A DNA stretch of 64,000 nt from an uncultured bacterium (GTDB lineage Bacteria; Bacillota_I; Bacilli_A; RFN20; CAG-826): contig CASFQA010000001.1 of NCBI GenBank assembly GCA_949296775.1, forward strand, positions 434,001 through 498,000, written 5' to 3'. The translations under genes and the position numbers were made by a program. Below are positions 2,547-34,627 of this stretch, piece by piece. The notes beneath the pieces were generated by a model. It made no database searches and was not told where the DNA came from. It worked only from the letters and a program-made list of their open reading frames with translations. Each line of letters begins with the position of its first letter. Position 1 is the stretch's first letter.

Positions 2547-2573
2547 GGGGAGGAGCGATCCTCCCCTTTTCTT
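2547..2573 (+). terminator. Rho-independent terminator of thrS
   Basis: Perfect 8-bp stem GGGGAGGA/TCCTCCCC with loop GCGA, followed by TTTTCTT. It ends between the converging thrS and the long minus-strand operon. Confidence 0.9.
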
Positions 2574-3261
2574 ATACGATATGGTTCTTCTTATAGTCAG
2601 AGGCCAAATAAGAAAGGCGGTTCAAGGCCAATAGGAGCAGCAAGAAGCCGATGTATATCCCAACTTGGGTAACGTAAATCGCCCAAGTGGGATAGGAAGA
2701 GAAGACATAGCTAAGCAATGACCCGTCGAGGATCATGACCAAGGCTTTGCCGTTGGGATCGAAATAAGGGATGGATATATACCCGTTTATTTGGAGCCAA
2801 TTCATGAATAAGGCCAGGGCGGCGACGATGATCGGGAAGACCATGTAACGCTTCTTGCATTCGAACCCGTAAAACAATAAATAGAGGGACAAAAAGAACA
2901 GCAGCCCATGGGTGAAGATGCCGCGGATGACGATGGGCAGGCTCATGTTGTGAAGGAAAATGGCGGGATTGAGCATGACCCCGATCAAATACCCTAAGGC
3001 CGAGATGAGCCCCAAAGCCCCGGAGCCGAAGTAAAAGGGCTTGAGGAAGAAAGTCAGCGAGACCCCGATGATCAAATAGCTTAAATGGCTTAGTTCGGTC
3101 GGGACCAAGGGGGTATAGATATATTCGATGATCTTCCAGATAAGCAAGATGCCGGCGACGATCCGACAGACGATCGAAAAGGCGGGCCTTTGGCGATGAA
3201 AAAGCAAAAATATCAGCAGAAACCCGACAAACGTAAGCGGAACCGCATAACGCATCCACAT
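2572..3261 (-). CDS. Multi-spanning membrane protein, YwaF/TMEM164-like
   Basis: A 229-residue product that is almost entirely hydrophobic, with six or seven predicted membrane segments. I chose the ATG at 3261 because it begins just after the stop of the upstream gene (3264) and has GAGG before it; a longer reading from 3336 would overlap that gene by 70 bases. The spacing of helices and the C-terminal pattern (an Asn before the last pair, then a 'YPTWAIY' segment) resemble the TIGR02206/YwaF family, whose role is unknown. It is the last gene of the eleven-gene operon, so it may anchor or assist the exported proteins encoded upstream. Family assignment is tentative. Confidence 0.6.
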   Translation of the reverse strand: MWMRYAVPLTFVGFLLIFLLFHRQRPAFSIVCRIVAGILLIWKIIEYIYTPLVPTELSHLSYLIIGVSLTFFLKPFYFGSGALGLISALGYLIGVMLNPAIFLHNMSLPIVIRGIFTHGLLFFLSLYLLFYGFECKKRYMVFPIIVAALALFMNWLQINGYISIPYFDPNGKALVMILDGSLLSYVFSSYPTWAIYVTQVGIYIGFLLLLLALNRLSYLASDYKKNHIV

Positions 3262-3263
3262 GA

Positions 3264-5795
3264 CTAGGACCTCGCCGATAGCTCGCTTAACGATGGGGTT
3301 TGCCCAAAATAAGGGGCTTGCTCCGGATCGTAGCAATAAAAGACATAATCCTCGAAGCCAAAGATATTAGATGCAGCCCGTGAAAGGGCGACTACCATAG
3401 TCGAATAGATGGCTTCGTGATGATCCATGAACTCGTTGTCAGGAACCATAACCGCCTTCCTCGATAAAGTTTCCCGGTAGCAATTAAACGCCTCGATTTT
3501 CAAACTCGATTTCAGGCTTTCATCAAGAACGACATCACTGAGATTGGTTCCGCCACCCATCTTCATAATCGGAGTCGCGATGTAATCATCTTGGCCGACG
3601 CGATAAACCGAAGAGGAACGAGAAAGCATTTGCCGAAGCGGCAAATAATCATCTTCGCCGACATTGGCGGGAATATCGGGTACCCCGCCATGAAGATTGA
3701 TAAACGTATCAATATCGTCGTAGATTAACGAATCGAAACCGAGATCGGTGGTCTTTTGGTAGGTATAGAACCGGTTGTCGCCTTCGAACGCAACCAAGCT
3801 CGGCGCCATAGTTCTCGCCAAACCTGTCGGGATATCCTGCATATACATACCGAGAATTAGTTTAAACATCGATGAAATAGAGGCTTCGAGGAAAGGACCG
3901 TTGCAATACGAATCGATAATGACTGGAGCAACATAGCAATCGCTGAAGAAACAGTCTCGTATTAATAATTCGTTATAGTACTTTTTGTTGCCTGAAGCAT
4001 CGACATAGCCGTTTTCGTTGGTTAAAGCTTCCTGAATTATTTCCGTTTGATCGATAATCTGATCAAACGTCATGCTGTCACGAGGAACGTAAGTATGCAT
4101 CAAACCGTCCCCTACGAATACGTTTGCTTGATTATTGAGAAAAACGCCATTAGTCAAAACCGAATCCGCTCGCCCGTCCTTTAAATTTTCTGGTTTAAAC
4201 GATCCGGAGAAATCGCCAGGCGAAAGATAATTGAAAACAATAGTTTCGTGTTGTTTGCCATAAGCATCGGAATAAGTAATCTTTTTAGAATAATCGACCT
4301 TGTTAGATTCGTTGGCGCCCGTCTTAATGCCGAATTCTAAGCACTTTTGCAGTAAGCAATTATCAACTTCCGTCAAAGAGGAATAGCTTCGAACTAGAGT
4401 TCGAGCCGAGGATATAACCGAATTGGAAACCCTTACGTTATCTCCCAGTATCTCGATTCCTGTTCCAGCAGTAAAAAGATTTTGGTAATTGTTGCCGAAA
4501 TCGGCATTCCGAAGTCGCAGGTTGTCGATGGTGATGTTATCTCCGTCAGCATAAATCAAACTGTTATCCTGGCCATAAACGACCAGCAATGGCTCAACTC
4601 CAGAAATCTGCGAATCTCCATAAGGGGTATATGGGTTACCGGCTGAAATATAAATAAGCGGACCTCGGAAGATATCTTTCCCATCGACGCCGAAACTCGG
4701 GACGATCGTTCCATCCTCCATTGTCTTAAAACTCGATGGATAGCAAAGATCGTGGCCATTGATCAAGAACCCGTTGCCATAAAGAGAGTGGCGGAGACGG
4801 ATGCCGGCATGGAGGGTGATGCCGATGTCATAGGATGTCTTGCTTGAATTATTCCACCAAGAAGCAAAATCATGGTTATAGGTTGCCTCGAAGTCGTAAA
4901 CATAGTTTTCCGGATCGACAACCCCATCAATCTCGCCGAACACCGCGACGTCTTTCCGGCTAGCCTCTGGCAATTTATCGTAGTTTTCTTTTGAATCGAG
5001 GTTAACGTGAAGCACCACCGGCTCCCCAGCAGCAGAAAGATTAGTCGCCTTGATCAAATCGGCGTAGGAATAGACGTTGACCCCCTCCACGGCGGTGAAA
5101 GTTATCTCGGTAGGCGGGGTTGAGGTGGAGAACGGGTGGGTGAAGCGGAAATAAGCCTCTCCGGGTCCGAGGACTGTGACTTCGCTCTTATTTAGGTCGA
5201 TTCGAAGATTGTCGGAATGTTCCAAGGCAAAGTCGTTGATGCCCATTCCGTCGTTACCGACCACTCGGGCCGAGAAAGTGAACTTAGCTTGATGTTTGGA
5301 ATAAGGGGAATCAATCGAATCGTAAGCCATATCGTCGGTTCCCCAATAATAGGTCCGCCCGATACCGGCGGAGGAAAAAGGATGGTCGAGGGTAACGACA
5401 ATCGCCCCATCCTCGCCATAGACCAAGGCGGTGAACCGCTTGCTGACGTTGCCTTTTTTATTCGAGGCGATGACTTCGGCCTGTCCCTCCGCCAAAGGGA
5501 CCAAATAATAACCATCGGTCCGTTCTTCAATCCGAATGATATCCTGTTCCTCGGAAACGGCCTTGAAAGAAATATCATTGCCGTTCGAAAGCGGGTATTT
5601 CTCGTTATAAACCGGTGTGGCTTCAAGCTTAACCGCCCCATCCTTCAATCCAAAAGGCTGCAAAGAATCGTACGGCAAGATTATGTCATCGATATCTTGC
5701 TCAACCCCTTTGATCAGGTAATCGCTGGTGGCAAAAGCCAAAAAGGCGATTAAGAACGGGAAAATCAGCAATATCGCGAGGACGCCTTTCTTCAT
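3264..5795 (-). CDS. Large membrane-anchored surface protein with beta-helix-like region
   Basis: An 843-residue protein with one N-terminal hydrophobic segment (about 4-25, no lipobox), so it is either secreted or tethered outside. Residues about 30-230 are beta-rich, with an Ig-like flavour. From about 320 to 500 there are short repeated turns such as 'NITIDNLRLRNADFGNN' and 'NVRVSNSVISSA', the pattern of right-handed parallel beta-helices of the pectate-lyase fold. No catalytic residues can be named. Its ATG overlaps the stop of the ABC permease gene in ATGA, so the two are probably translated together. The neighbouring exporter makes an exported or matrix role likely; the true substrate or ligand is not known. 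Confidence 0.65.
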   Translation of the reverse strand: MKKGVLAILLIFPFLIAFLAFATSDYLIKGVEQDIDDIILPYDSLQPFGLKDGAVKLEATPVYNEKYPLSNGNDISFKAVSEEQDIIRIEERTDGYYLVPLAEGQAEVIASNKKGNVSKRFTALVYGEDGAIVVTLDHPFSSAGIGRTYYWGTDDMAYDSIDSPYSKHQAKFTFSARVVGNDGMGINDFALEHSDNLRIDLNKSEVTVLGPGEAYFRFTHPFSTSTPPTEITFTAVEGVNVYSYADLIKATNLSAAGEPVVLHVNLDSKENYDKLPEASRKDVAVFGEIDGVVDPENYVYDFEATYNHDFASWWNNSSKTSYDIGITLHAGIRLRHSLYGNGFLINGHDLCYPSSFKTMEDGTIVPSFGVDGKDIFRGPLIYISAGNPYTPYGDSQISGVEPLLVVYGQDNSLIYADGDNITIDNLRLRNADFGNNYQNLFTAGTGIEILGDNVRVSNSVISSARTLVRSYSSLTEVDNCLLQKCLEFGIKTGANESNKVDYSKKITYSDAYGKQHETIVFNYLSPGDFSGSFKPENLKDGRADSVLTNGVFLNNQANVFVGDGLMHTYVPRDSMTFDQIIDQTEIIQEALTNENGYVDASGNKKYYNELLIRDCFFSDCYVAPVIIDSYCNGPFLEASISSMFKLILGMYMQDIPTGLARTMAPSLVAFEGDNRFYTYQKTTDLGFDSLIYDDIDTFINLHGGVPDIPANVGEDDYLPLRQMLSRSSSVYRVGQDDYIATPIMKMGGGTNLSDVVLDESLKSSLKIEAFNCYRETLSRKAVMVPDNEFMDHHEAIYSTMVVALSRAASNIFGFEDYVFYCYDPEQAPYFGQTPSLSELSARS

Positions 5796-7390
5796 AAACG
5801 ACGCCCCTCATAGGAAAGGAAAAGCCTTTCGCCCTTGAATAGGAACACAATCAAAGTCGGAAGCAAGAACAAGGCGGATAGCCCCAACATTAAGGCATAG
5901 GGCAGATCGGCATAGGAATAAGTCAGCAAGGTCGCGAGCGCAGGAAGCCCGGCTAAAATGAATGGCGTTAAAAACGACAATAAAGAAGAAAAGCCGGCCG
6001 AGGCTGAGCCATAACGAAGTTCCGACAAAACATAATTCAAATAAATCCAGCAAAGGTAAAATAAACCCGCGAATAAAACGTAAGCGAACTGGACCCATGA
6101 GAGGTTCCCTAAAATCGCCAGGCTTAAAGCGGCGGCAAAGAAGGATAACGATGACCATAGCAGGGGGACCAATACCTTAACGGAGAGCTGAGCCCGCCCC
6201 GTGACAGGAAAGGTCTTCATCAATAAGACTTGTCGCCCTTCTTTATTAAGACTTAAGCCGCCAGAGCCGTTGATGACTGAAAGGAAAAGGAAAATCAAGG
6301 CAATCTCAATGAAGAAAGGGAAACCCGGAAAAAGGCTTAGAACATAATTGAGGTTGCCGAGGTGAAAGATCGCATCGACCGCAATAACCACCGAGACGAT
6401 CAAAAAAGGAGAAGCCAAAACCAACGGGAAAAAGGAGAAAATGCCATCGGCGCTGGAGGTGAGCACCAAGAGTTCTTTCTTCATCAAGGCCGGCAATGGG
6501 CGTGAAAGCGGCTTGACCATTACCTTAGCCCGCCTTTTCCGGTTAGCTGACGGATTCTTCAAAAATCGCGAAAAAGCGAAGAAAAGGATCGGGAGAGAGA
6601 TCGCATAAACCGATAAAGGAACCAGGAAAAGGATGAGAAGATAATCCCAGCTGGCACCGCGGCCAGCTGTCTTAACGATAGTAACGAAAGGGTAGAGCCC
6701 TTCCCCTACCTTCGTTAAGGTCGTAACGGATGAATTGGATAGCAAGGCATCGATGGAATTGCCGGAGACCAAAGCGACGAACAAATTGAGCACGTAGGCA
6801 TAAAAAGCGGTCAAAGCCAACATTAATGCAAAGGAGACAACCAGCAAGACAATTGAATTCCGTTTAATGAAATTAGCCAAGGCACTGAAAGGAAAAGTTA
6901 GTAAAAAGGCCGCCCCCAAACTCATCATCGCGATCAGGATAACGTAGATGAAGGCAATGATATAAAACACGAAAAGCGAACCATACTTCAGCCCAAAGCA
7001 AAGAAGAATCGGCAAAGAGAAGGAAAAATGAAAAGCCAAAGAAAGAATATAACAATAAGCGGATTTGGCAAAAAAGATGGAACCATTGTCAATCGGCAAT
7101 GGGCAAAGAACGGCTCGCTCCTGAGAATTAAAGAAGCAACGAGAAGTTTTGGGCAGCAAATAAATGACGGAAGCAAAAAATATCAAAAACAAAACAATGG
7201 CGGTCAAGGCCTGATTGACCCCTTTATAGGCGGAGAATTTATCGTAAGCCTGGCAATAGATGAAACACTCAACGGCGATGAAAGCGCCCAAACCAATGAT
7301 AGCCAAAGCGATCTGAGTTATCTTCGAAAGCAATTTGCCTTTCTTTAGCAACGGCAAAGAGGATATTTCGCGAAGCAAAACGGCAATCAT
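5792..7390 (-). CDS. ABC exporter permease, about 12 membrane segments
   Basis: A 532-residue polytopic membrane protein. It starts in ATGA overlap with the ATPase gene and ends in ATGA overlap with the large surface protein gene. The long, evenly hydrophobic layout with a basic cytosolic loop in the middle (near 285-300, 'NRKRRAKVMVK') fits ABC-2-like permeases of the PF16949 type found in Bacillota. With the ATPase it would form an exporter. Nothing in the sequence tells the substrate; candidates from context are the surface proteins themselves, a polysaccharide, or a toxic peptide. Confidence 0.75.
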   Translation of the reverse strand: MIAVLLREISSLPLLKKGKLLSKITQIALAIIGLGAFIAVECFIYCQAYDKFSAYKGVNQALTAIVLFLIFFASVIYLLPKTSRCFFNSQERAVLCPLPIDNGSIFFAKSAYCYILSLAFHFSFSLPILLCFGLKYGSLFVFYIIAFIYVILIAMMSLGAAFLLTFPFSALANFIKRNSIVLLVVSFALMLALTAFYAYVLNLFVALVSGNSIDALLSNSSVTTLTKVGEGLYPFVTIVKTAGRGASWDYLLILFLVPLSVYAISLPILFFAFSRFLKNPSANRKRRAKVMVKPLSRPLPALMKKELLVLTSSADGIFSFFPLVLASPFLIVSVVIAVDAIFHLGNLNYVLSLFPGFPFFIEIALIFLFLSVINGSGGLSLNKEGRQVLLMKTFPVTGRAQLSVKVLVPLLWSSLSFFAAALSLAILGNLSWVQFAYVLFAGLFYLCWIYLNYVLSELRYGSASAGFSSLLSFLTPFILAGLPALATLLTYSYADLPYALMLGLSALFLLPTLIVFLFKGERLFLSYEGRRL

Positions 7391-8136
7391 CGAGTTTCCT
7401 TTCGCCCCACTAGATTCAAGAAATAATCGGAGACTTGATAACGTAAGGATGGATCGGACTTAAGATCAAAGACAGTATTGATGACTCCGTCGTAAATAAT
7501 AGCAATCCGGTCGGCTAAAGCCGAAACCATCTCGATGTTGTGACTGGCGATGAAAACGGTCCTCCCATGATTGACGAACTCTTTCATCATCAAGGTCAAT
7601 TCATGGGAAGTAACGGCGTCAAGGCCGACCGTCGGCTCGTCCATGACCCAGATTTTTGGATTATGGATAAGCGAAGCAATAAGACCAAGTTTTTGCTGCA
7701 TGCCATGAGAATATTCCTTGGATGGACGGGATAGGTCATCGGCGGTCAAATCCAATCGGGACGAAAGATAGGAGAGGTTTTTATCAAACGTTTCGTCGCC
7801 GACTCCATAAATGCTGGCGATGAATTCCAAATACTCAAGGCCGGACATGTCGGTATAAGAAACCGGTTCAGACGGAACATAGCCAATCACCTTCTTGACC
7901 TCGATTGGGTCCTTTTTTATCGAGTGACCATCGATGACGATATCGCCCGAATCAAAGGTCTTCAGGCCGATCATCGAATCGATTGTCGTCGATTTACCAG
8001 CCCCATTCGTTCCAATGAAAGCGAAAAGCTCACCCTCTTTGACATCAATGTTGATGCCTTTGAGAACTTGCTTTCGACCATAGTTTTTCTTGAGGCCGGT
8101 TATGGATATGGCGAAATTGACGTTTACCATGACCAT
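7387..8136 (-). CDS. ABC transporter ATP-binding protein
   Basis: A 249-residue ATPase that powers the permease encoded next. Walker A is GTNGAGKST (42-50), the signature is YSHGMQQK in place of LSGGQ (this form is common in ABC-2 exporters), Walker B is IWVMDEPT, and the switch His lies in ASHNIE. The first ATG (8136) and a second two codons later (8130) are both possible. Either start lies at or inside the 3' end of the upstream gene (stop at 8124), so translation probably depends on coupling, as no good Shine-Dalgarno is seen. Confidence 0.93.
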   Translation of the reverse strand: MVMVNVNFAISITGLKKNYGRKQVLKGINIDVKEGELFAFIGTNGAGKSTTIDSMIGLKTFDSGDIVIDGHSIKKDPIEVKKVIGYVPSEPVSYTDMSGLEYLEFIASIYGVGDETFDKNLSYLSSRLDLTADDLSRPSKEYSHGMQQKLGLIASLIHNPKIWVMDEPTVGLDAVTSHELTLMMKEFVNHGRTVFIASHNIEMVSALADRIAIIYDGVINTVFDLKSDPSLRYQVSDYFLNLVGRKETR

Positions 8137-10952
8137 CCACTCGGGCTGACACTGCCCTTAATCTTCCATTCGTTTTGCTCGTAGGCGAAACTGCGATAAA
8201 CATAACGAGTGCCGCTTTCGACATTCGAATCAAAACCTGTGAATTTCATAATCGAGCCGGAAGAATCGCTCAATCTAAAAGGAATAAAAGCGCCGTGATA
8301 GAAAATCATTGGCTTCCCACCATACGAAATAACGTGGTTGCCCGCATCGGTAACTTGCTTGAAACTACCGGAAAGCGAATTGATGCCCAAGGTGTTCTGA
8401 GCATTATTGTTGGCATAATATATATTTTGGGATACGGCGTTAGGGCTATCGAAAATAAAAGCATACAAATTCCCGTTGCCTACATCGGTTATTAAACCCG
8501 AGGTCCGATCGTAAAAACAATTTCGTCTCCCGGAACTATTAGGAAGTTCAGTCAAAACTTCGCCATTTGAAATTAATGGGGCGGAATAGAAACCGGCAAT
8601 ATTCACTTGATGCAAATTGATACTAAGCCCGACTTCTGCAGTCGAAGGCCCAGTCATGACGCCACAGCCAGAAAGATCCACGTTTACGTCCTTTATTTCG
8701 TTAAGAAAGGAATTATTATCGCGAAGATTGATTTCTCCGGCCAAAACATAGGGAGCTTTATTCCCAGAAGCAAAATTCAACTGGGCATCACAGTCGAAAC
8801 GCGCCGGTTTGTTTGAATAATAATTCCAAAAATTAGTCCACGAAAAAGCCCAATTACCGTTTCCTTCGTTATTCTGTTTTTCCTTTTTTCGCGTGTCGAA
8901 CCAGCCATAGCGCCTGCTGTCATCAAACTTGACGATATTACTGCCTTCATACTGATAATTCGAGTTGCCGTCATTAAGATTGTAATAATCCTGACACAAG
9001 ATGATGCCGGCCGAGCAATAATTAAATTGGTTGTCGGCATAATCCATATAAGAGCCAATGTTTTGTTGAATTAAGTCGTCAATATAAAAACTGCTACTGG
9101 AAAAATTCAACGTAGACGCCGCATCGGCAAAAAGGTAACAACCGGGGGCAAAAGTGAACTGCTGGTAAAAAGTTATATCTGAGTTATATGAATAAAAGTC
9201 GAAATATGGCGGTACCCAAATTGAGAATTTTTTGGAGCTGATCGAAATATCGTTCCCTCCAAATTCGACCGACATATAAAAACCGCCGATGTGAACGTCG
9301 GCATTTTCAAAAATCCAACTAAATCGCTGATAGGCAATATTCATCAATGTGGTATTTGACTTACTGTTCTTAACCTGATCATAAAGTTCAGTATTGTAGT
9401 ATGTCTTCCGAATAACGCGGCCACCAGTGTTCTTCATTTGAAACATGAAACAGTTTTCGGAACCGATGACGGGAGATCCGTTATCAGGAACCGGCCCTAC
9501 CAGCCCGACATCAAGGTGGAAAGCCCCCATGCTTGCACCGAAAGACAAAAGCAGTTTGCCGTAAAATTTTGACCCGTATTCACAAATTACGGTGCAGTCC
9601 AAATATGGACAGCGAAACATTTGCATAAAATCCATGCCTTGCGCGTAGATTTCCGGAAGAGAATTTTCCCTCCACGCATCCTCGACAACCAAGTTGGTGT
9701 ACATAATTGAGCCGTTGCGCAAAACAATGTTGCCGGTCCTGCCTTCCGAAGAATCGGTAACCGACCCAAACGAATCGATCATCGAACCGTTTTCGACAAT
9801 TAGGTCAAAACCGTTCAAATCGATTTCGCAATAGGGGCCGACCATGAACCCTTGATAATTTAATTGAGTCCATTGCAGCGGATCGCCAGCGTTAGCTTCA
9901 TAGGACCTGACTGTAAATGCAAAGCCGGTCAAACCCGCAAGGGTAATCGAGGTCCCGGTGAAAACAACGTCACAATTCAATGTCAATCGGTTTGCGCAGT
10001 ATTCGGACTGATACTCTGCTCCGATTGAATCGCCAAAAACAATAGCATCCGATTTCCAAGGCGATCCAGACATGTCGCTTAAATTAATTGGCTTATAAAA
10101 TTCGTTGTATTTGTCTTCCTGACCAGGCACATAATCGGAATCATGGGTCTCGAGTCCAATGGAGCTGTGGCTGCGAGTATAAGATACGTTTGTTCCGTTT
10201 TGGAAGGCCCACTCAGTAACACCGGCGCCCCATGCACCATCATTATACGTTTGTCCGTAATACCCTATTTGCCGTCCAGCGTGATTGTTACTTACACGTG
10301 AACCAGAATAGCCAACTGCATTAGTGTTTCGCCGTGCAATCATAAAGTCTTTGTTATTGTAAGAACTATCTAAGGTTAAACAGTCTTCTGTATCGCCGTT
10401 GTCCCCTTTGACATGGAAAGTCGTTCCGCCTCCGGCCAACCAAAAACAATTGTTGGTCAAAGAAATCGCGTTGTCCAAACCCGCCAGATAGGCTGCATCG
10501 CCTCCACTGAACTTAGGCGTAGAGGTATTGATGTCGGTATTGACGACCCCGCTTTGTGTTTGGGGCTGATTCGTCCTATATTCTTCCCAGTATTCAGCCA
10601 ATAACGTAGTAGAGGAATTAACAACAGAGGCAGTTAAAGTCAAATCGTTTTCTAAAATAAAATGGTTATTAAGATATTGACTGCCACTAGCCCAAGTATA
10701 AACAGAGTTGTTTCTAACAGTAAAAGGGGCATCTTTAAGGCTTAAAACATATCCTTTGGGAAAACTCTTTGTTTCGGTTTCAGAATCCCACTTAAAAGTA
10801 ACATTAACCTCATTATCGGCTCCTTCGCTAACGTCTTGGGAATTTTGGTAACCGAGGAAATCTTCAAGATAAAGTTTTCCTAACGAAGGCATTATCAAGC
10901 AAAAAACACCTGCCAACCCCGTTATGATTGGAACCAAACGCCCTTTCATCAA
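8124..10952 (-). CDS. Large surface protein, Asn/Ser/Tyr-rich, beta-helix-like
   Basis: A 942-residue protein with a single N-terminal hydrophobic stretch (about 8-26) and no lipobox. The rest is rich in Asn, Ser, Gly and Tyr, with many short beta-strand turns (for example 'CEIDLNGFDLIVENGSMIDSFG' region near 375-395 and 'GNIVLRNGSIMYTN'). This suggests a solenoid such as a beta-helix on the cell surface. It does not look like any enzyme I know. It is flanked by a SipW-type secreted protein (ATGA overlap at its start) and the ABC ATPase (13-base overlap at its end). Low GC compared with thrS. Its general architecture resembles that of the 843-residue protein two genes later, but I cannot claim homology. 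Confidence 0.6.
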   Translation of the reverse strand: MMKGRLVPIITGLAGVFCLIMPSLGKLYLEDFLGYQNSQDVSEGADNEVNVTFKWDSETETKSFPKGYVLSLKDAPFTVRNNSVYTWASGSQYLNNHFILENDLTLTASVVNSSTTLLAEYWEEYRTNQPQTQSGVVNTDINTSTPKFSGGDAAYLAGLDNAISLTNNCFWLAGGGTTFHVKGDNGDTEDCLTLDSSYNNKDFMIARRNTNAVGYSGSRVSNNHAGRQIGYYGQTYNDGAWGAGVTEWAFQNGTNVSYTRSHSSIGLETHDSDYVPGQEDKYNEFYKPINLSDMSGSPWKSDAIVFGDSIGAEYQSEYCANRLTLNCDVVFTGTSITLAGLTGFAFTVRSYEANAGDPLQWTQLNYQGFMVGPYCEIDLNGFDLIVENGSMIDSFGSVTDSSEGRTGNIVLRNGSIMYTNLVVEDAWRENSLPEIYAQGMDFMQMFRCPYLDCTVICEYGSKFYGKLLLSFGASMGAFHLDVGLVGPVPDNGSPVIGSENCFMFQMKNTGGRVIRKTYYNTELYDQVKNSKSNTTLMNIAYQRFSWIFENADVHIGGFYMSVEFGGNDISISSKKFSIWVPPYFDFYSYNSDITFYQQFTFAPGCYLFADAASTLNFSSSSFYIDDLIQQNIGSYMDYADNQFNYCSAGIILCQDYYNLNDGNSNYQYEGSNIVKFDDSRRYGWFDTRKKEKQNNEGNGNWAFSWTNFWNYYSNKPARFDCDAQLNFASGNKAPYVLAGEINLRDNNSFLNEIKDVNVDLSGCGVMTGPSTAEVGLSINLHQVNIAGFYSAPLISNGEVLTELPNSSGRRNCFYDRTSGLITDVGNGNLYAFIFDSPNAVSQNIYYANNNAQNTLGINSLSGSFKQVTDAGNHVISYGGKPMIFYHGAFIPFRLSDSSGSIMKFTGFDSNVESGTRYVYRSFAYEQNEWKIKGSVSPSGWSW

Positions 10953-11584
10953 ACCATCCTCACTAAGAAACTAGAAAGAACCATTGAAGAAAGCGCGCTA
11001 ATATCGGGAATCGAAAATTCGAATACGCAATTGAATTGAATCGGACTTGTGGCGTTATTGCCGGTCTTCTCAACGACATATTGAAGACTGTTTCGATCAT
11101 AACTGGCTCCGGCAAAATGATCGGCAATATAGTAGGACGCGCTGATTCCGTTCGACTCAAATACCCTTTCCGCAGTACCGCATCGTTCATTTTGACTGCC
11201 CGGGGTCAAATATACGGAAGAATAATCCAAATATTCACTGAATTCGCCAATAAGCTCGAATTCAATTTTTTCGTATTGATGGGCGCTAGCAAAAGAACGG
11301 AGAGAATTTAATCCGCCCTGTGCAAATTCAAGAGTCGCGATAACAGAATACGTATAAACGCCATGTGAGCTTGATGCAGAAGTTAATACCGATTCAATCG
11401 ATAAATAGGGCACATCGGAATAATAAGAATCAATTGCGTAATCAATAGTTATATTGCCAAAAGCAGTTGAGTAAGAATGGTTGCCAACCCCCGGGTTATA
11501 TTCTATCGCCCCATAAGTCGCACTAACCGCGCAGAAAGGCAAGCAAAGAGCTAGCAACATAGATGGAAAGCGGCGGTTTTTCAC
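10949..11584 (-). CDS. Secreted protein with SipW/TasA-type signal peptide
   Basis: A 211-residue protein. The signal region is basic, then hydrophobic, and ends in SATYGAI (21-27). The TasA-like protein at the head of the same operon has the near-identical GATFGAI, the type of site cut by SipW-like signal peptidases. The mature part is beta-rich with no known domain. It ends with a short hydrophobic run (SALSSMVLSSFLVRMV), which could be membrane-associated. The start and stop both overlap neighbours by four bases (ATGA). I infer that it is a substrate of the signal peptidase encoded upstream and a minor matrix or fibre component. Confidence 0.6.
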   Translation of the reverse strand: MKNRRFPSMLLALCLPFCAVSATYGAIEYNPGVGNHSYSTAFGNITIDYAIDSYYSDVPYLSIESVLTSASSSHGVYTYSVIATLEFAQGGLNSLRSFASAHQYEKIEFELIGEFSEYLDYSSVYLTPGSQNERCGTAERVFESNGISASYYIADHFAGASYDRNSLQYVVEKTGNNATSPIQFNCVFEFSIPDISALSSMVLSSFLVRMV

Positions 11585-12690
11585 GCGCTAACCTCCTCAA
11601 AACAAGCGTATACAGTTAACGATCGCGTAATGGGCGTAAGGTCGGTAAGCCTGCCAGAGGTGGGATCCTTCGGACCAACGGAAGAGGTATACCACCCCAA
11701 GAAAGTCGCCCCATCCTTAGTAGCCAATGGAAGACTTGGAATTGCCGATCCATATTGCACATCGACATATGGAACGTCGTCCCAAAGCAAAACACCCCCA
11801 TTGGTAACGGCATCAAACGTCACGCGCAGCAAAGGCTTCTCCTCACCAAGCGTCGCTACCTCTCGCCAAACGTAATTTGAATACCGATAGATTATCAATG
11901 CGGTCAAATCAAAATAATAATCGCCATCCTTGGCTCCATCGACGAAAGTTGGCTTCTGATTCCCGCTGAACCAACGAGTGCCGGATTCCGGCATATCGAA
12001 CTCCAACACAACTGGGTTTTCCAAATCATCGGTATAAGTAATCGTAAGATAATATTTGCCAGCGTATTCATCGGTTACGGCAACAATCGATTCGATCCCC
12101 CTGCCATCTTTTCCGTCCTCGCCATTTTTATAGGGCAATCGGATTTCAGTTGGTTTGACAGTCGGATCCGTATAGGTGATGGTAATTATGATATCCCCAT
12201 TGTTCTCGGTCGTCTGACTGACCGAGGAAATGCCAACCCCATCTTTTCCCTGCGGCAAGGCGAAGGCGTGTTCTTCTCCATCGCTGGTGAGGAAAGTGAT
12301 GGTCGTCAATCCGGTCTCTTCGTCATAAGAGGAAGAAAAACTTTCGATGCTATTGGCATTTGGAATTTCCCAAATCGAAGGATCAAGGGTCGGATCGGTA
12401 TAGGTTATGGTAATGACCAGCCCCGATCCGTCTTTCGCTTCCTCACTTTCGATGGATGCGATGCCAATCCCTTCGGGGCCTTGGTCACCTTTATCGCCTT
12501 TGGGGATAGTGAAGGTGACGGTCGGAACGTCCTCATCGGTGAAGACGATGGAGACCTTCTTGCTGCCGTCGTCGAGATTCTCAACGATAACGTCTTGGAT
12601 ATATAGACCTTCCTCGGTCCCAAGCAGCCCGCAGGAAGAAAGGGAGAAGGCCGAAACCAATCCGAGCAAAAGATTCTTAAGTTTACGCAT
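11581..12690 (-). CDS. Lipoprotein with collagen-like motifs and InlB B-repeat-like C-terminus
   Basis: A 369-residue lipoprotein; the lipobox ends LSSC (Cys20). It has a repeating design: a beta segment ending 'ITITYTDPT', then a Gly-rich turn such as GDKGDQGPEGIGI, GKDGVGI or GEDGKDGRGI, seen three times. These are short collagen-like or phage-tail-like connectors. The last 80 residues ('RVTFDA..GGV', 'ATFLGWYTS', 'VYACFEE') match the InlB B-repeat/Listeria-Bacteroides repeat pattern of surface proteins. It likely stands on the outside of the membrane as a rigid rod. Its start overlaps the zinc-ribbon gene by eight bases. Confidence 0.75.
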   Translation of the reverse strand: MRKLKNLLLGLVSAFSLSSCGLLGTEEGLYIQDVIVENLDDGSKKVSIVFTDEDVPTVTFTIPKGDKGDQGPEGIGIASIESEEAKDGSGLVITITYTDPTLDPSIWEIPNANSIESFSSSYDEETGLTTITFLTSDGEEHAFALPQGKDGVGISSVSQTTENNGDIIITITYTDPTVKPTEIRLPYKNGEDGKDGRGIESIVAVTDEYAGKYYLTITYTDDLENPVVLEFDMPESGTRWFSGNQKPTFVDGAKDGDYYFDLTALIIYRYSNYVWREVATLGEEKPLLRVTFDAVTNGGVLLWDDVPYVDVQYGSAIPSLPLATKDGATFLGWYTSSVGPKDPTSGRLTDLTPITRSLTVYACFEEVSA

Positions 12691-13777
12691 CTTTCCGCCC
12701 TCCTAATCTAAATAGCAAATCCGGGGCCCATAGGCGACTTATGCCGTCTTTGACATATGGTTGATAATGCGCATGACACGCAGGGCAATTCCTCTCACTA
12801 GATAATCGCTCGCCGCATAAAGGGCAAAATCCGGTATCGGAGGCATTAAGTCCGAGCAAGCGAATCGGGGAGGAATAATCGTTGGACTGAAATAGCGAAA
12901 TCGCCGCTGATCCACCGGCGAAAGCAATGTTCATCGACGGGCCAATGAAGCCGCTTTCCAAAGTTATGCCGAACTTCCTCGAATCCCCGTTGACAAGATT
13001 GTTGACCCTTAGTTCCAGCTTGCCGTCATATCGGCGCACCCTAAACTCAAAGTCGCCATCAACGAAAACGGCCGGCAAAGAAGGGGAAATTGACTTTGCG
13101 TGGGTCCGGAAGTCCTCCAAAAGCCGCTTCAACACCACATCATCGTCCTGAGAATAAGAGGTAGTGAGATATAGGCGGTATAAGGACCCATAAAGCGGAT
13201 CGTAGTTCAAGACGTTGTTTGGGTGGACTTGATCATCGGACAACGGCTTAATGGAGGAATAAAAGGCTGACGAAGACAATAAACCAGCGATTTCATGCAG
13301 TCGCCTAATCGCCCCCATCTGGATGCTCAACTCGCCAAAATCCGATGCAAAGGAAAAAGCTTGCTCGGCGTTGCCCCATTTAGAGAAGCGAAGGGGGCCA
13401 ATCGCGGTTTCCAAACTGCCGTTTTGCAGGAGACTTCGATAAGCGAGGCTGGCTTCTTTCTCAATCAAATCGAGGCAAAGCTTCGCGAAACGGTTTTCAT
13501 AGGTCCCGAGTTCATCCTCCACGAGCTCGGCGTATATCTTCTTTGGCGTCAGCCGTTCGTTCAGGAACCCGAAATTTCGGCTTTGCTTGGCCGTTTGGGC
13601 GAAAAGACGGGGATTGAACTTTCGGGCTTTAGTCGCGTCTTCGAGATAAACCTCGGTCCGAATGCCTTTTCGAGCACGCAGAAGAATCTCGCTGAGGACA
13701 TCCAAAGCCCGCTCCGCTGCCTGGAGGTCGAATTGGCCAAGGGGCCGATATGTCGAAACCGATTGCTGAACGATCAT
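12683..13777 (-). CDS. DUF2357-like protein with C-terminal zinc ribbon, partner of McrB-like ATPase
   Basis: A 364-residue, probably cytosolic protein. The 'YENRF' motif (93-97) followed by an amphipathic helix is typical of DUF2357 proteins that pair with McrB-like ATPases. No PD-(D/E)XK nuclease motif could be found, unlike McrC. The C-terminus carries four Cys in two CxxC pairs (318, 321, 331, 334), a zinc ribbon, followed by a conserved-looking tail. Its ATG overlaps the ATPase stop (ATGA), so the two are made together and probably form one complex. Function inferred only from context; it may couple the ATPase to a client rather than cut DNA. Confidence 0.6.
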   Translation of the reverse strand: MIVQQSVSTYRPLGQFDLQAAERALDVLSEILLRARKGIRTEVYLEDATKARKFNPRLFAQTAKQSRNFGFLNERLTPKKIYAELVEDELGTYENRFAKLCLDLIEKEASLAYRSLLQNGSLETAIGPLRFSKWGNAEQAFSFASDFGELSIQMGAIRRLHEIAGLLSSSAFYSSIKPLSDDQVHPNNVLNYDPLYGSLYRLYLTTSYSQDDDVVLKRLLEDFRTHAKSISPSLPAVFVDGDFEFRVRRYDGKLELRVNNLVNGDSRKFGITLESGFIGPSMNIAFAGGSAAISLFQSNDYSSPIRLLGLNASDTGFCPLCGERLSSERNCPACHAHYQPYVKDGISRLWAPDLLFRLGGRKDA

Positions 13778-15570
13778 CGATTCCTCCTGAGCTCAGATTC
13801 AATGGTGGCGATGGTCTTTGGCATTTTCTCGCCGTAGGTTTTCTTCACATATTCCTCTAGTTCAACAAGGCCGGAATGATAGGCCATGTCAACCCTTCCC
13901 TTAGCTTTTCTAAGCACTTTAAAGGCAAATAGATAATCGAGCGCTCCCTCTTTGTCGCCCCGCATCGAAGCATAGACCGGAACCAAGGAAGCGGTTTGGA
14001 CCAAAAGACGGTTGCCGGTTTTGATGCCTAAGCAGACATCGGCTTGGGATAGCAAAGCCATGAATTTCTTAATCTCGTCTTCGCCTAGCCGGAAATCCTT
14101 GGATTCCCTGGCGGCGGTAGCCAAAGCATTAAGATCTTTGTACGAAAGGGGGGTCGGTTTGGCTTTGGAGGCAAACTCAATCGGTTCGTGGTACTGTTCG
14201 AAATCGAGAACGATAGCCCGGTCGATGACCTTATCGGTGATGGCGAAAGTCGAGTCATCGGTATTGGCGGTCCCGACAAAGCGAGTATTGGGAGTGAGGA
14301 TCAAGTCCCCGTTAGCCAAATTAGTCGGGGTATCCTCGGGCAGATTAATCAAATGAATCCTCCGTTCGTCCTCAGGGAACTCCAAGACCGAAAGGAAGGG
14401 GGCGAAATAATACTCGACTCGCGAGATGTTCATTTCGTCAAGGACCATAAGATTAAGGCGATTGGCCCGGAAACTCGCTTCATATAGCCGCTTTAGGAAT
14501 TCGGTCTCGAAGTAGACGCCGGTGAAATCATTGAAATAGCCAAGCAGATCATCTTTGTCCTTATAGGTCATCTGAATTGACTCAAAGAATGCGGTTTCGC
14601 CGATGAATTTGGCAAAATAACGCGGCAAGGAAGATTTACCGGTGCCAGAAACGCCTTCCAATATCGTCAACGGAGTAGTCATCAATGCCGATACGAACAT
14701 CGCCAAGTCGTTCAAGGAATAATATAAGGAGCAAGATGTCGCGAGATAATTCTGCAAATCCCCAACCAGTTTCTTTGTCGTGAGGCCATTCGGAAGGAAA
14801 GGGAGGCTCTGCTCGCCGGCGACGAATCGCTCATCAATCGCGGTAAGGCTCGGAAATACCCGTTTTCTGTCATAGCCTTCAACGATGCCACCACCGGCGA
14901 TGAGGGCGCCGGAAACGCTTGCGATTCCTCCATTGCCCTTGCCATCTTCCGGTTTCTTGTCGAAAGAATCGGCGATGTCCTTGTCATCTTTCTTCTCCGA
15001 CTCTTCCGCTTCCGGATTCGTCTCGTTCAATTTCTTCCCGCCTGCCATATTAACTGTTTCTCGATTAACAGTCGGCAACGCCAAAATGAATAAGTAGGCA
15101 GCAATGACGATCGCGTAAATCGCAATGAAAGCCAGCAAAGCGATAAAGATGGATTCGAAGGCAAAAGCGATGTTTTGGACATAACCATCACCGCCTTCAG
15201 GGATCGAAAACAAAGATCCGACCCCGAAGAAAACAAGGAACCCCCCTACGCCGATTAGGATTACGTAAGGGAACATCTTCGAGGAAATAAGCGTCTGATC
15301 ATGGGAATGGACGCTGTTGACGATGGAGAAGAGGGCGATGACTCCGAAAACAACGAATAAAGCAATAAATAGAATTAGGATATAAGCCGATATCGAGGCT
15401 TCGATGGTTGGAAAGCCAAACAGTTCCCCAATCGAGGCAATCAGGTTGTTTTTCTTGAAGACAATGTAATTGGCGTCTAAACCGCCAGCAACGAAAAAGC
15501 TAAGCAAAACGAAGAAAATGGCAGAAGACGTAATTGCTTTTTGCCAACGAGTGAATTTAAGAATCTTCAT
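13774..15570 (-). CDS. Membrane-anchored McrB-like AAA+ ATPase
   Basis: A 598-residue protein with two parts. Residues 1-175 hold about four membrane helices. After a charged linker (about 175-235), the rest is an AAA+ domain of the McrB/AAA_5 branch: Walker A GVSGTGKS (near 306-313), Walker B LMVLDEMN with the McrB-like continuation ISRVEYYFAPFLSVLE (near 375-396), and sensor 1 TANTDDST (near 432-439) followed by DKVIDRA. The start has AAGGAG upstream and overlaps the signal peptidase stop by 14 bases. McrB itself is soluble and works in DNA restriction. Membrane anchoring, and a locus full of secreted proteins, point to a remodelling or assembly role at the membrane. Confidence 0.8.
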   Translation of the reverse strand: MKILKFTRWQKAITSSAIFFVLLSFFVAGGLDANYIVFKKNNLIASIGELFGFPTIEASISAYILILFIALFVVFGVIALFSIVNSVHSHDQTLISSKMFPYVILIGVGGFLVFFGVGSLFSIPEGGDGYVQNIAFAFESIFIALLAFIAIYAIVIAAYLFILALPTVNRETVNMAGGKKLNETNPEAEESEKKDDKDIADSFDKKPEDGKGNGGIASVSGALIAGGGIVEGYDRKRVFPSLTAIDERFVAGEQSLPFLPNGLTTKKLVGDLQNYLATSCSLYYSLNDLAMFVSALMTTPLTILEGVSGTGKSSLPRYFAKFIGETAFFESIQMTYKDKDDLLGYFNDFTGVYFETEFLKRLYEASFRANRLNLMVLDEMNISRVEYYFAPFLSVLEFPEDERRIHLINLPEDTPTNLANGDLILTPNTRFVGTANTDDSTFAITDKVIDRAIVLDFEQYHEPIEFASKAKPTPLSYKDLNALATAARESKDFRLGEDEIKKFMALLSQADVCLGIKTGNRLLVQTASLVPVYASMRGDKEGALDYLFAFKVLRKAKGRVDMAYHSGLVELEEYVKKTYGEKMPKTIATIESELRRNR

Positions 15571-16474
15571 TTTGCTGAACTCCTTTGTCGATGGTTAATG
15601 ATGTATTCGTCGAGGTTCGCTTTTTATCAATCGTACCCTCGAAAGAAGAATTGAATTCGATGAACCCGTCCGGTGATTCGATAGTGATTTTGACGGCTCC
15701 GGCCTTGAAGAGATCTTTGATTTCGGCTAAACGCTTTTCTTTGATGGTTTCCGATTTTGAGAAATAGACCTCGGCGGCGATGATCACATAGGCTAACGCC
15801 GACATGCCAAGTATCCCATAATCGTCCTGGAGGTAGAAGGTCAAAGCTCCTAACGCAGGAATTCGAATCCCAGTATAACGGCCGTTGATCATGCCTAAGG
15901 TGATTTTAACCCCATCAGTGCCCGGCCCGGCATTGGCGTCGCCCCGAGTTATGAGGTATCCGTCGCCGATTTCAACGACCCGGTGGATGACGTTGATTCC
16001 CTCCGGATGCTTATAGCTTACGATATCGTAAAGTTGAATTTCGTCGAGCGAGTCTACTTTTTCTAGAACGACAATGTCATTGACGTAGATTCGATCGTCG
16101 CGCCCTTCTAGATAATCCGCGTTAGCGGGATCAACTGATGCCATCGATGGGGTTTTTACCGCCTCCAAGGAATAAGGTATCCCGAGATTCGGCATCGCGC
16201 GCGTGAAAATCAAAACGGCGACTGCCAGGAACAGCGCCCCCACGAAAATGTCGAATATAATGGAACCGGCCTTAGCCCAGCGCTTCCGCGTCGGGCTTTG
16301 GCTGGCTTTGCTTATTTGGTCCTCGACTATCTCGAAATCCGCTTCCCCCGAAGCCATCTCTTTCCGAGACAACCTCCACATATAAATAAGGAAGCCGGTT
16401 AAAAGAACCAAGAGGATGATCACCGCGACAAGAATCGCGATGAAGGTTGTGGATAAGAAGATCGGCAAGCCCAT
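15557..16474 (-). CDS. Signal peptidase I, SipW-like
   Basis: A 305-residue membrane protease of the S26B (ER/SipW) type. There is a first membrane helix at about 9-32, a second at about 71-91, then the catalytic region: Ser110 in TPSM, His164 in NVIHRVV (His in place of the Lys of bacterial P-type enzymes) and Asp179 in TRGDAN. A third helix lies near 215-232, followed by a cytosolic tail of about 70 residues. It should cut the signals of the TasA-like protein encoded just upstream and of the SATYGAI protein encoded downstream. The long N-terminal and C-terminal cytosolic parts are larger than in Bacillus SipW (about 190 residues). Confidence 0.88.
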   Translation of the reverse strand: MGLPIFLSTTFIAILVAVIILLVLLTGFLIYMWRLSRKEMASGEADFEIVEDQISKASQSPTRKRWAKAGSIIFDIFVGALFLAVAVLIFTRAMPNLGIPYSLEAVKTPSMASVDPANADYLEGRDDRIYVNDIVVLEKVDSLDEIQLYDIVSYKHPEGINVIHRVVEIGDGYLITRGDANAGPGTDGVKITLGMINGRYTGIRIPALGALTFYLQDDYGILGMSALAYVIIAAEVYFSKSETIKEKRLAEIKDLFKAGAVKITIESPDGFIEFNSSFEGTIDKKRTSTNTSLTIDKGVQQNEDS

Positions 16475-16487
16475 CTAGGGCCCCCAA

Positions 16488-17132
16488 TTAATTGTTCAAA
16501 TTGACTTTGACGGTAGCGGTGATTTTAGCCCCATCGACCGCGGTCTTGAAGTTGTTCAGCAAAGTGGCCGCTCCCGAGACATCCATGCGAGAAGCGCCAA
16601 CTTCGGTGTTGATGTAGCTGATAATCCCGCCGGTAAAAGGAGAAGTCCAAGACAGGTCGCCGGTGACAGTGAGGGTCTTCTCGGTTTCGGACCCAGTGCC
16701 TTCGCCACTGAACGCAGCTACTTCCTGATTGCTAATCGTCGGCAAAGTCAAATAATCCTCAGCATCTGGATGAGCAGAGTCCCAATCCAAAGTAATGGAC
16801 ACGCTCTTCCAAACGGATGGGTCGCCAGTAACGGTGAGATCAATGCTGAACTGTAAATCGTTTTGAACATTGGTGGCGCTGGCCGGGGAGCCGGTCTTAT
16901 CGGCTTCGGTCTGCCAACCATCGACCGTGATGCTTCCGTCATTGACTGCCGCTTCCAGATTGACAACTTGGTTTTGGATGGTAACGGTACCAATAGAAAT
17001 CCCATCATTGATGTTCTTCTCGGTGGAGCCGCCAGTAAGAACGATAGCGCCGAAGGTTGCGCCAACAGTTCCGACGCCGCCAAGCAAAGCAACGGCTGAG
17101 ACGATTAATTTCCTTTTTGAGGTTTTGGTCAT
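16488..17132 (-). CDS. TasA/CotN-like SipW-dependent secreted protein
   Basis: A 214-residue protein that begins MTKTSKRKL, then a hydrophobic core and the motif GATFGAI (24-30), the hallmark of SipW-dependent TasA/CotN signals. The mature region is beta-rich with repeated 'TVTGD' segments (twice) and no Cys, consistent with a fibre-forming jelly-roll such as TasA. I chose ATG 17132 because AAGGAGG lies nine bases before it; the TTG two codons upstream sits too close to that site. It is the first gene of the operon and probably its most abundant product. Confidence 0.8.
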   Translation of the reverse strand: MTKTSKRKLIVSAVALLGGVGTVGATFGAIVLTGGSTEKNINDGISIGTVTIQNQVVNLEAAVNDGSITVDGWQTEADKTGSPASATNVQNDLQFSIDLTVTGDPSVWKSVSITLDWDSAHPDAEDYLTLPTISNQEVAAFSGEGTGSETEKTLTVTGDLSWTSPFTGGIISYINTEVGASRMDVSGAATLLNNFKTAVDGAKITATVKVNLNN

Positions 17133-17434: not shown

Positions 17435-17440
17435 ATGACT

Positions 17441-18400
17441 ATGGAAAAAGTGAATCCGCCCTATCGGGCCAGCTTCTCAACCAGCAACGCGGTGGTCATG
17501 GCGTTGACGTCATTATGCTTCAAAGTCGGCCGTTTATCGGCTGTTTCCGCGCCGGTTCCCCTTCTTGCCGCCAGCGCGAACGAAGCCGCGGCCTATTTGG
17601 AGGAGGGAGGAAAGAGGCTCACCCCTTCCCAATTACGGGGTCTCTATCGGGGTGAGGACATCGCCTCAGTGCCCCTGGCGAGGCGGATTTGCAGCCTTTT
17701 CTATAAATCAGCCAAGATCGATCCTGGCGATTCCTCGTTTCTAAAAACCTACGAATCGACCCTCTGGGGAGAGGACATCCCGGTCCGCTTATCCCGCCGG
17801 GTCGACTCCTATCCCTACTCGATCCCGCCTCACGCCAAGGTCGAGGAGCTATTGAACCGGACGTTCATCTTCGTCAAAAACGCCCAGCCCCATGTCTCGC
17901 CGATCCTCCTGTCGGGGTTGCTGCTGTTCATGCTCCCGGCCATCATGCCCTACCGCGAGCATCCTTTCCTATTGGCTTTCCTTTACGCCAAAGCCGAGTT
18001 GATCCGCTTCAAAAAGGATCTATTGGGGATCAAACTGCTGAAGCACCTATACAAAAACGAAAACAAGCTGAAGTCCGCTTACGAGAAATCGGTGGGCAAA
18101 GAGGATATGGCCCCGTTCCTCATCGCCTATATGCAGGCCATCGAGGAGGCGATTGAGGAAAGCATCAAGCATTCGCTTCTGCTTCGGGGCGGCTTGACCC
18201 CGATGGCCAAGCGGATGTTGGAGAAAATGGAGCCGGGCAAGTTCTATTCGGCCACCGACCTCTTGTCTTTATTGGGCTTAAAATCCCGGCTTGGGCTCCA
18301 TAAGAACTACCTGAAGCCGGCTTTGGAGGCCAATAAGATCGAGATGAGCAACCCCTTGTCCCCGACCGATCGGAATCAGCGTTACCGGAAAAAACCATGA
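17441..18400 (+). CDS. Fic-fold protein lacking the catalytic HPFx(D/E)GNGR motif
   Basis: A 319-residue protein. The middle (about 117-240) follows the Fic domain: 'IPPHAKVEELL', then 'SPILLSGLLLFMLPAI', then MPYREHPFL exactly where HPFxDGNGR should be, then a loop and 'DMAPFLIAYMQAIEEAIEES'. The last 60 residues are the winged-helix tail seen in many Fic proteins, ending 'RNQRYRKK' as in their 'SRxQKYxLT'. Without the His and the GNGR loop, AMP transfer is very unlikely. I infer a pseudoenzyme, perhaps a DNA-binding or binding-only regulator. ATG 17441 fits a leaderless mRNA (a second ATG lies six bases upstream). It overlaps the following gene in ATGA. Confidence 0.6.
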   Translation: MEKVNPPYRASFSTSNAVVMALTSLCFKVGRLSAVSAPVPLLAASANEAAAYLEEGGKRLTPSQLRGLYRGEDIASVPLARRICSLFYKSAKIDPGDSSFLKTYESTLWGEDIPVRLSRRVDSYPYSIPPHAKVEELLNRTFIFVKNAQPHVSPILLSGLLLFMLPAIMPYREHPFLLAFLYAKAELIRFKKDLLGIKLLKHLYKNENKLKSAYEKSVGKEDMAPFLIAYMQAIEEAIEESIKHSLLLRGGLTPMAKRMLEKMEPGKFYSATDLLSLLGLKSRLGLHKNYLKPALEANKIEMSNPLSPTDRNQRYRKKP

Positions 18401-18807
18401 CCTTCGTCATTTTGCTCCTGCTCGGCTTGGCCTTTGATTTCGCCGCCAGCTTCTTCCGTAAGCGAAACCTCTTGGCTTACATCCTTCTAGCCATCGCGAG
18501 CCTATTTGTTTTGCTCGGCTCGGTCTACTTCGTCTTTTATTTCCAGGGTAAGTACGCCGAGGAGGACGAGGGCTGGGTCAATTGGACCTTCGCCTCCTTC
18601 GCCTTAGCGATCCTTTTCCTCCAGCTGGTCTATGGGTCCACTTATATAAAGAGGATCGGAAAATGGATCGGGGTCGCCGCCACCGCGCTTTTCTTCCTCT
18701 TCGCCTTAACCGGGGTCGGGATGCTTTGCTATTACGGCCGAATTTCCCTCGATAATGAGTCGATTTCCTCGACGTTAAGCAATCTCGTCGCGATTTTGCT
18801 TGCATAA
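18397..18807 (+). CDS. Small four-helix membrane protein
   Basis: A 136-residue hydrophobic protein with four predicted membrane segments (about 2-18, 27-49, 66-84, 93-113) and acidic loops. I do not recognise a family. Its start overlaps the stop of the Fic-like gene (ATGA), so both share one mRNA and may work together. The -35 box for infC lies at its very 3' end. Confidence 0.7.
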   Translation: MTFVILLLLGLAFDFAASFFRKRNLLAYILLAIASLFVLLGSVYFVFYFQGKYAEEDEGWVNWTFASFALAILFLQLVYGSTYIKRIGKWIGVAATALFFLFALTGVGMLCYYGRISLDNESISSTLSNLVAILLA

Positions 18808-34073: not shown

Positions 34074-34118
34074 GGTTTTTTACCTTTCCTTATCTTGAAG
34101 TTGGCTTCAGCCGGTTAA

Positions 34119-34146
34119 ATGCTAAAGTCGGTCGAAAACGTGTCAA
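34119..34146 (-). promoter_or_regulatory. Promoter of the Ig-like lipoprotein operon
   Basis: TTGACA (34146-34141 on minus), 16-base spacer, TAGCAT (34124-34119). About 40 bases of leader with a Shine-Dalgarno. Confidence 0.75.
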
Positions 34147-34192
34147 ATGTTTTTTTCAAATGGGTTATTAGAGGCGAAGGCCCGAGTGATTA

Positions 34193-34224
34193 TTGACTAG
34201 AATTGTCACGAACGCATATATAAT
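34193..34224 (+). promoter_or_regulatory. Promoter of small lipoprotein/cysteine peptidase operon, leaderless type
   Basis: TATAAT (34219-34224) ends six bases before the ATG at 34231, so the start point falls on or next to the A of ATG. TTGACT (34193-34198) is a possible -35 with a long spacer (20 bases, or 18 to an overlapping TATATA). Confidence 0.6.
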
Positions 34225-34230
34225 AAAGAT

Positions 34231-34617
34231 ATGCAGAAAGGCGCGATTGTCTCGTTATTTGCTCTATCCTTGTTCTCTTGTTCTAACGTAGGGGATTTTC
34301 CTTTGTACCGGGAAACTTTGACCAACAGCGAACAAGTCGACATCTACGTTTGGCTCGACTACGACGGAGAATGGGAAAGCGGCTGCCTCCCCTCTTCCGA
34401 CTCCATTCCGAACTATCAAACGCTTCGTGACCTGCAATGCAATCATCCCTGCCCATTGAAAACGATGAATAGGATAATAAAGCGATCAGGCAAAGAGAGA
34501 GGGAACATCGACGTCTATGAGATAAGATATCCGATGCAAAATACATTCTACGAAAACGCTGAACTTGTCGAACTGACGTGCTATAAGCAATATATATTGA
34601 GTTCTTTATTTGAATGA
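34231..34617 (+). CDS. Small lipoprotein, paralogue of the 36975-37409 product
   Basis: A 128-residue lipoprotein; lipobox LFSC (Cys17). The mature part shares with the 144-residue protein two genes later the patterns 'VWLD..G.W.S', 'C..NHPCPLKTMN..I..SG' and 'YPM', clearly a common family that I do not recognise. The cysteines in 'CNHPCPL' may form a disulfide or metal site. The coding sequence is A+T-rich compared with ribosomal genes around. The two copies frame a cysteine peptidase gene, so they may be immunity or inhibitor proteins for it; this is inferred from arrangement only. Confidence 0.65.
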   Translation: MQKGAIVSLFALSLFSCSNVGDFPLYRETLTNSEQVDIYVWLDYDGEWESGCLPSSDSIPNYQTLRDLQCNHPCPLKTMNRIIKRSGKERGNIDVYEIRYPMQNTFYENAELVELTCYKQYILSSLFE

Positions 34618-34627
34618 AGGTAACGCA

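Follow-up and report, generated by a model that had tools for sequence, protein, structure and literature searches.

A conserved operon joins small exported proteins and a SipW-type signal peptidase to an McrB-like ATPase and its nuclease-free DUF2357 partner

In an uncultured gut bacterium whose nearest named relatives are Candidatus Alloenteromonas (Bacilli), genes for small exported proteins and an ER-type signal peptidase stand in one predicted operon with those for an McrB-like AAA+ NTPase, predicted to be membrane-anchored, and its DUF2357 partner, and this linkage is conserved among Bacilli and Clostridia. We think it probable that the operon encodes an export and assembly machine for a surface filament (or surface layer) in which a motor derived from restriction has been reused.

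Results

Eleven tightly packed genes form a predicted operon

The operon lies in the window, by which we mean the whole 64,000-nucleotide stretch of DNA that was analysed; the source assembly comprises 1.52 Mb in 10 contigs. Inspection of the open reading frames confirmed all eleven genes of the initial annotation at 2572-17132 on the minus strand (Table 1), with R starting at 10949 and M at 3261. As had been claimed, every junction is an overlap or a gap of no more than 13 bases, the range being −14 to +13 bp (T/S +13, S/A −14, A/D −4, D/L −8, L/T2 −4, T2/R −1, R/a −13, a/b −4, b/H −4 and H/M +2 bp), and most of the eleven starts have a good Shine-Dalgarno sequence. Internal terminators splitting the operon, which the initial annotation had named as counter-evidence, were not found beyond chance: 27 terminator-like hairpins were detected compared with 20.3 ± 4.9 in shuffled sequences, and the internal ones lie inside open reading frames. 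From this layout, the eleven genes are predicted to be co-transcribed as a single operon.

On one side the operon is flanked by thrS (641-2539) and on the other by two divergent genes (17435-18807), beyond which come infC and rplT. The GC content of the operon is 46.8%, compared with ∼56% in its flanks, and GC3 ranges from 0.39 to 0.70 compared with 0.82 in thrS. Because close orthologues of the operon are, in addition, present in only some congeners, it was likely acquired laterally at the thrS-infC site. The divergent pair encodes a protein with a Fic-like C-terminal domain and a small multi-TM protein, and adjoins the operon also in congeners (L031-L034); its products could be a regulator or mere residents of the site. 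The GC minimum of the window (39.8%) falls at 34001-36000.

Table 1. Features of the operon and its downstream boundary (window coordinates).
Feature	Position	Strand	Description
T	16488..17132	−	Exported protein, 214 aa; SipW-type leader; N-helix and beta-sandwich; putative filament/surface subunit
S	15557..16474	−	SipW/ER-type signal peptidase I with an additional TM at the N-terminus and an extended C-terminus; S110, H164, D179 kept
A	13774..15570	−	McrB-like AAA+ NTPase; four predicted N-terminal TM helices; Walker A GVSGTGKSS, Walker B VLDEMN, ANTDDST, R451 kept
D	12683..13777	−	DUF2357 partner (N-terminal part of McrC); YEN, Y196 and the zinc-ribbon cysteines C318/C321/C331/C334 invariant; nuclease domain absent
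L	11581..12690	−	Lipoprotein with Listeria-Bacteroides repeat; conserved family-wide
T2	10949..11584	−	Second small exported protein; stands before R
R	8124..10949	−	Large exported protein, ~940 aa; conserved in part of family only; matches no known family
a	7387..8136	−	ABC transporter ATPase
b	5792..7390	−	ABC permease, ~12 TM; weak ABC_tran_2 / ABC2_membrane_4 matches via relatives
H	3264..5795	−	Large exported protein, 843 aa; beta-helix-like stretch; relatives in many genomes share ~30% identity
M	2572..3261	−	Multi-TM membrane protein; conserved in near relatives only
Hairpin	2547..2566	.	Strong; between thrS and operon end; likely shared terminator

A keeps the McrB motor core and D lacks a nuclease

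The assignment of A as an McrB-type ATPase held up in two profile comparisons. PADLOC profile PDC-M26A matches the AAA+ domain of 60 of 60 ATPases of the family, and in hhalign the A family scored 91.6% (E 8e-7) with E. coli McrB compared with 2.9% for RavA. Across 60 relatives, little or no variation is seen in the Walker A and Walker B motifs, the NxD region or R451. N436 and D438 are invariant, as expected of the NxD signature; D439 is conserved too, so that NxxD is possible, but the +3 position becomes E in some relatives. A DNA-reader domain was not seen. When the full ATPase alignment was used to search PDB profiles, no AAA+ match came up, and the few weak matches sit in the TM region, for which a count of about four helices was obtained by hydropathy and inspection only.

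The DUF2357-like nature of D likewise stood: PF09823 (DUF2357) is matched by 41 of 61 members of its family (best 3e-13). In Foldseek, the best PDB match of D is the McrBC-like YdjA-YdiS and E. coli McrC ranks 10-11, all matches being weak (E 2e-3, low TM-score). A PDB profile search with the D profile returned mostly zinc ribbons. As direct hhalign of D to E. coli McrC was unsuccessful, the family call draws on PF09823 together with the weak Foldseek matches. The only invariant acidic residue in the family is E94 of the YEN motif, which is invariant along with Y196 and the four zinc cysteines. The structural model (pLDDT 90) combines a helical bundle with a stretch made up of beta structure alone (228-294) and a zinc ribbon (∼311-350); residues 228 to 302 contain no helix. 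As a PD-(D/E)xK core requires helices, the model indicates that D does not contain one, and nuclease families were absent among the leading Pfam matches of the 61 partners. In D of the window type no tail follows the zinc ribbon. Sequence and model together indicate that D retains the activator part of McrC without the nuclease.

S is an ER-type peptidase, and a TasA-like identity of T is not supported

The SipW-like peptidase of the initial annotation is borne out as ER type (SEC11/SipW), with the catalytic Ser/His/Asp kept. S matches SEC11C with E 4e-18, and in its family S110, D150 and H164 are invariant and D179 is nearly invariant. Its neighbour T, which occurs in one to seven tandem copies among relatives, had been called TasA-like, and this call found support at neither family nor fold level. 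T matches neither Peptidase_M73 (PF12389) nor the SipW-cognate family TIGR04088, and its profile-profile match to M73-like proteins spans the 28-residue leader only. The model of T places a beta-sandwich after the SipW-type leader; a fold search gave no PDB match at E < 0.001 and TasA was not among the 50 matches listed, although at pLDDT 77 this is a weak test. We rejected a TasA identity for T, as comparisons by Pfam, NCBIfam, PDB profiles, fold and profile-profile alignment all gave no support for a link past the SipW-type leader. T has no recognised fold match, so its filament-forming role stays putative.

The remaining products were assigned with varying success. The predicted lipoprotein L was confirmed, as was the ATPase of the proposed ABC exporter, the permease being matched weakly and through relatives. 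Of the two large proteins described as solenoid-like, H has weak support for a beta-helix and R has no family match. PDB profile searches with H, R and b matched nothing.

The linkage is conserved in distinct arrangements

Of 96 relatives searched across their whole genomes, 68 carry the ATPase. The conserved linkage across species that the initial annotation had put forward as its own test was evident: a SipW-type peptidase is present in the operon in 71 of 101 ATPase contexts from the 96 related genomes. The remaining contexts comprise nine with upstream exported proteins in which SipW was not seen (a contig end in most), eight of a third class, seven with the pair only and six without the DUF2357 partner. 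Of 139 cases, 77 have SipW at a distance of no more than 6 kb from the ATPase, compared with ∼1.8 expected from genome length, figures that serve as a guide and not as a formal test, the genomes being related and fragmented. Open reading frames of the relatives were called by a simple ORF picker, and the Clostridia survey was an 80-locus scan.

In class I, the window type, T (one to seven copies), S, A and D are followed by a, b, H and L, an arrangement seen in dozens of gut genomes from Bacilli and Clostridia. ATPases that share 30-40% identity still stand in this order, and genomes labelled Acholeplasmatales, Erysipelotrichaceae and Clostridia are among the carriers; the subgroup to which the window belongs has L, T2 and R between D and the a-b pair. 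In class II, whose order is equally stable, Y-X-A-D-S precedes genes for an EAL protein of the c-di-GMP phosphodiesterase type and for a nucleosidase-like protein, and the ATPases carry one TM and a coiled-coil-like helix. The window's own genome holds a class II copy (L051, G000:C1 about 131001-151000) with Pfam matches to EAL (1.9e-66) and PNP_UDP_1 (8e-18). Of the 84 proteins collected with a loose profile, just 20 show the EAL catalytic-motif pattern, and we therefore do not claim phosphodiesterase activity for all of them. Class III combines at least two ATPases with D and with exported proteins of large size, one of which has a WxLIP-type domain. The same linkage pattern recurs in further families of the class.

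A FastTree phylogeny of the AAA+ domain placed class I in one group (support 0.87; a few edge-cut loci included) and classes II and III in another (0.95), with 12-TM stand-alone pairs and restriction-type McrBs branching outside these surface-linked groups. ATPase pairs without surface genes, which had been named as evidence against the proposed unit, do exist. As the 12-TM pairs branch outside the surface-linked ones, this objection mainly concerns a separate subfamily, although several Clostridia pairs near class I also have no surface genes. The 12-TM (∼900 aa) McrB-DUF2357 pair is widespread without surface genes (L065, L066, L070, L276-L281), and in one locus (L140:106-4451) a pair of this stand-alone type stands directly upstream of a class I operon.

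Only two loci were found that place the pair among pilin or pilus genes. At L134:2887-19653, it stands amid six genes with a type IV pilin leader, some very large; the two leaders tested against PF07963 matched at 2.4e-9 and 3.2e-9. This locus is nested in the class I group, and its closest relatives carry T-T-S-A-D. In a Clostridia genome (L147:2326-12432), the pair directly follows PilD, PilC and PilB (with an MshEN domain) in a type IV pilus operon. Together with the EAL genes of class II, these loci favour a role in surface filaments or matrix over one in restriction. The pair at L147 adjoins a normal PilB motor and so may have an accessory part there instead of driving assembly itself.

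Discussion

Building on gene order, conserved linkage, motor motifs, the missing nuclease and the catalytic residues of the peptidase, all obtained by computation, we infer how the machine might work. T would cross the membrane via its N-terminal hydrophobic helix and be processed by S. A would form a ring, held in the membrane by its four TM helices and with its motor domain facing the cytosol. Much as McrB is activated by McrC, A would be turned on by D and might then spend NTP hydrolysis to extract, translocate or polymerise subunits such as T, possibly into a filament. H, R and the lipoprotein L would be surface or anchor components, and the a-b pair would export a further component. The A-D pair would descend from a type IV restriction motor after loss of the nuclease. 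Of the fibre or matrix machine with an ATPase at the membrane that was originally proposed, the conserved unit of SipW-exported proteins and McrB/DUF2357 stands, whereas the TasA label and full novelty do not.

Other readings were weighed against this model. The operon could serve envelope-linked defence: at the membrane, the McrB-like ring would still detect phage, by its DNA or by injection, with the exported proteins as effectors or receptors. PADLOC indeed lists the pair as a phage-defence candidate, PDC-M26, a name not found in our literature search; besides the M26A matches, M26B matches one partner, and related restriction-type McrBs occur in the same order. However, the lack of a nuclease in D weakens this alternative and led us to reject restriction as the primary function. 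Moreover, the window operon contains no other defence gene, its neighbours are housekeeping genes (thrS, infC, rplT), and surface structures better account for the EAL phosphodiesterase, the pilins and the exported subunits, as many as seven in number, making defence quite unlikely. Defence-gene scanners will flag such surface operons as phage defence (PDC-M26).

It also appears unlikely that A-D serves membrane quality control or regulation instead of driving assembly, whether by clearing or folding SipW substrates as an AAA+ extractase or chaperone or by controlling S. An N-terminal TM followed by an AAA domain is the layout of membrane-anchored extractases, to which A may be likened, and a pair beside a complete PilB/PilC set would suit an accessory role. 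Yet the tight linkage to dedicated subunits suggests a core part, not a general factor. Mere co-transfer of an ATPase pair and surface genes that are functionally unlinked is very improbable. The low GC of the operon relative to its flanks suggests a lateral origin, but gene order persists across divergent ATPases of Bacilli and Clostridia, separately arranged modules have the same partner families, and the linkage counts already disfavour this explanation.

A restriction-derived motor reused for surface-filament or surface-layer assembly or export remains our preferred reading. A wider proposal, which we advance tentatively and at slightly less than even odds, is that these loci form a branch of McrBC-derived, nuclease-free, membrane-anchored motors for filament biogenesis in Bacilli and Clostridia, in which SipW-processed subunits and type IV pilins are exchangeable and one branch is tied to c-di-GMP turnover; the pair would then be a new filament motor or chaperone.

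The closest relatives of the parts are known from separate systems. McrBC type IV restriction shares the McrB-type AAA+ core and the DUF2357 activator domain, but the window pair has no PD-(D/E)xK nuclease, shows no DNA-reader domain and is predicted to be membrane-anchored. In the SipW-TasA/CalY systems of Bacillus, too, an ER-type peptidase neighbours small exported proteins whose leader resembles that of T, whereas T matches no M73/TasA family or fold and the classical systems have no McrB pair; at two M73 loci (L213, L214), SipW is present and the ATPase was not found in the stretch examined. Type IV pili are associated with the same pair in two genomes, as described above, although the window operon contains no pilins, PilB, PilC or PilD. 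A precedent for McrB reuse outside restriction is PcdA of Staphylococcus aureus, an McrB-family protein reused in division, a cell-envelope process (PMC10602043); PcdA's motor is degenerate and it lacks a DUF2357 partner, whereas both are intact in the window.

No description of class I was found in the open-access library searched. The nearest published system is CoCoPALM, which the CoCoNuT paper names once, with an FtsB-like NTPase, signal peptidases and a guess at pilus assembly, deferring details (PMC11090510). The initial annotation knew of no earlier description of the unit; this holds for class I, whereas McrB-signal peptidase linkage as such is already named there. As far as that brief mention goes, CoCoPALM and the window have in common an NxD-type McrB-like NTPase with a membrane anchor, a DUF2357 partner, a signal-peptidase neighbour and a suggested link to pili (PMC11090510). 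On the same partial account, the CoCoPALM NTPase has one FtsB-like TM and a coiled coil where A has four predicted TM helices, its McrC homologue is fused to a coiled coil and D ends in a zinc ribbon with no tail behind it, and the window operon adds the ABC pair, the beta-helix protein and the lipoprotein. The class II module, this genome's second, fits CoCoPALM as outlined there well, and the window type is, within the literature searched, an undescribed variant. The CoCoPALM remark would thereby become a testable system, a nuclease-less restriction motor in the biogenesis of surface structures in abundant uncultured gut bacteria.
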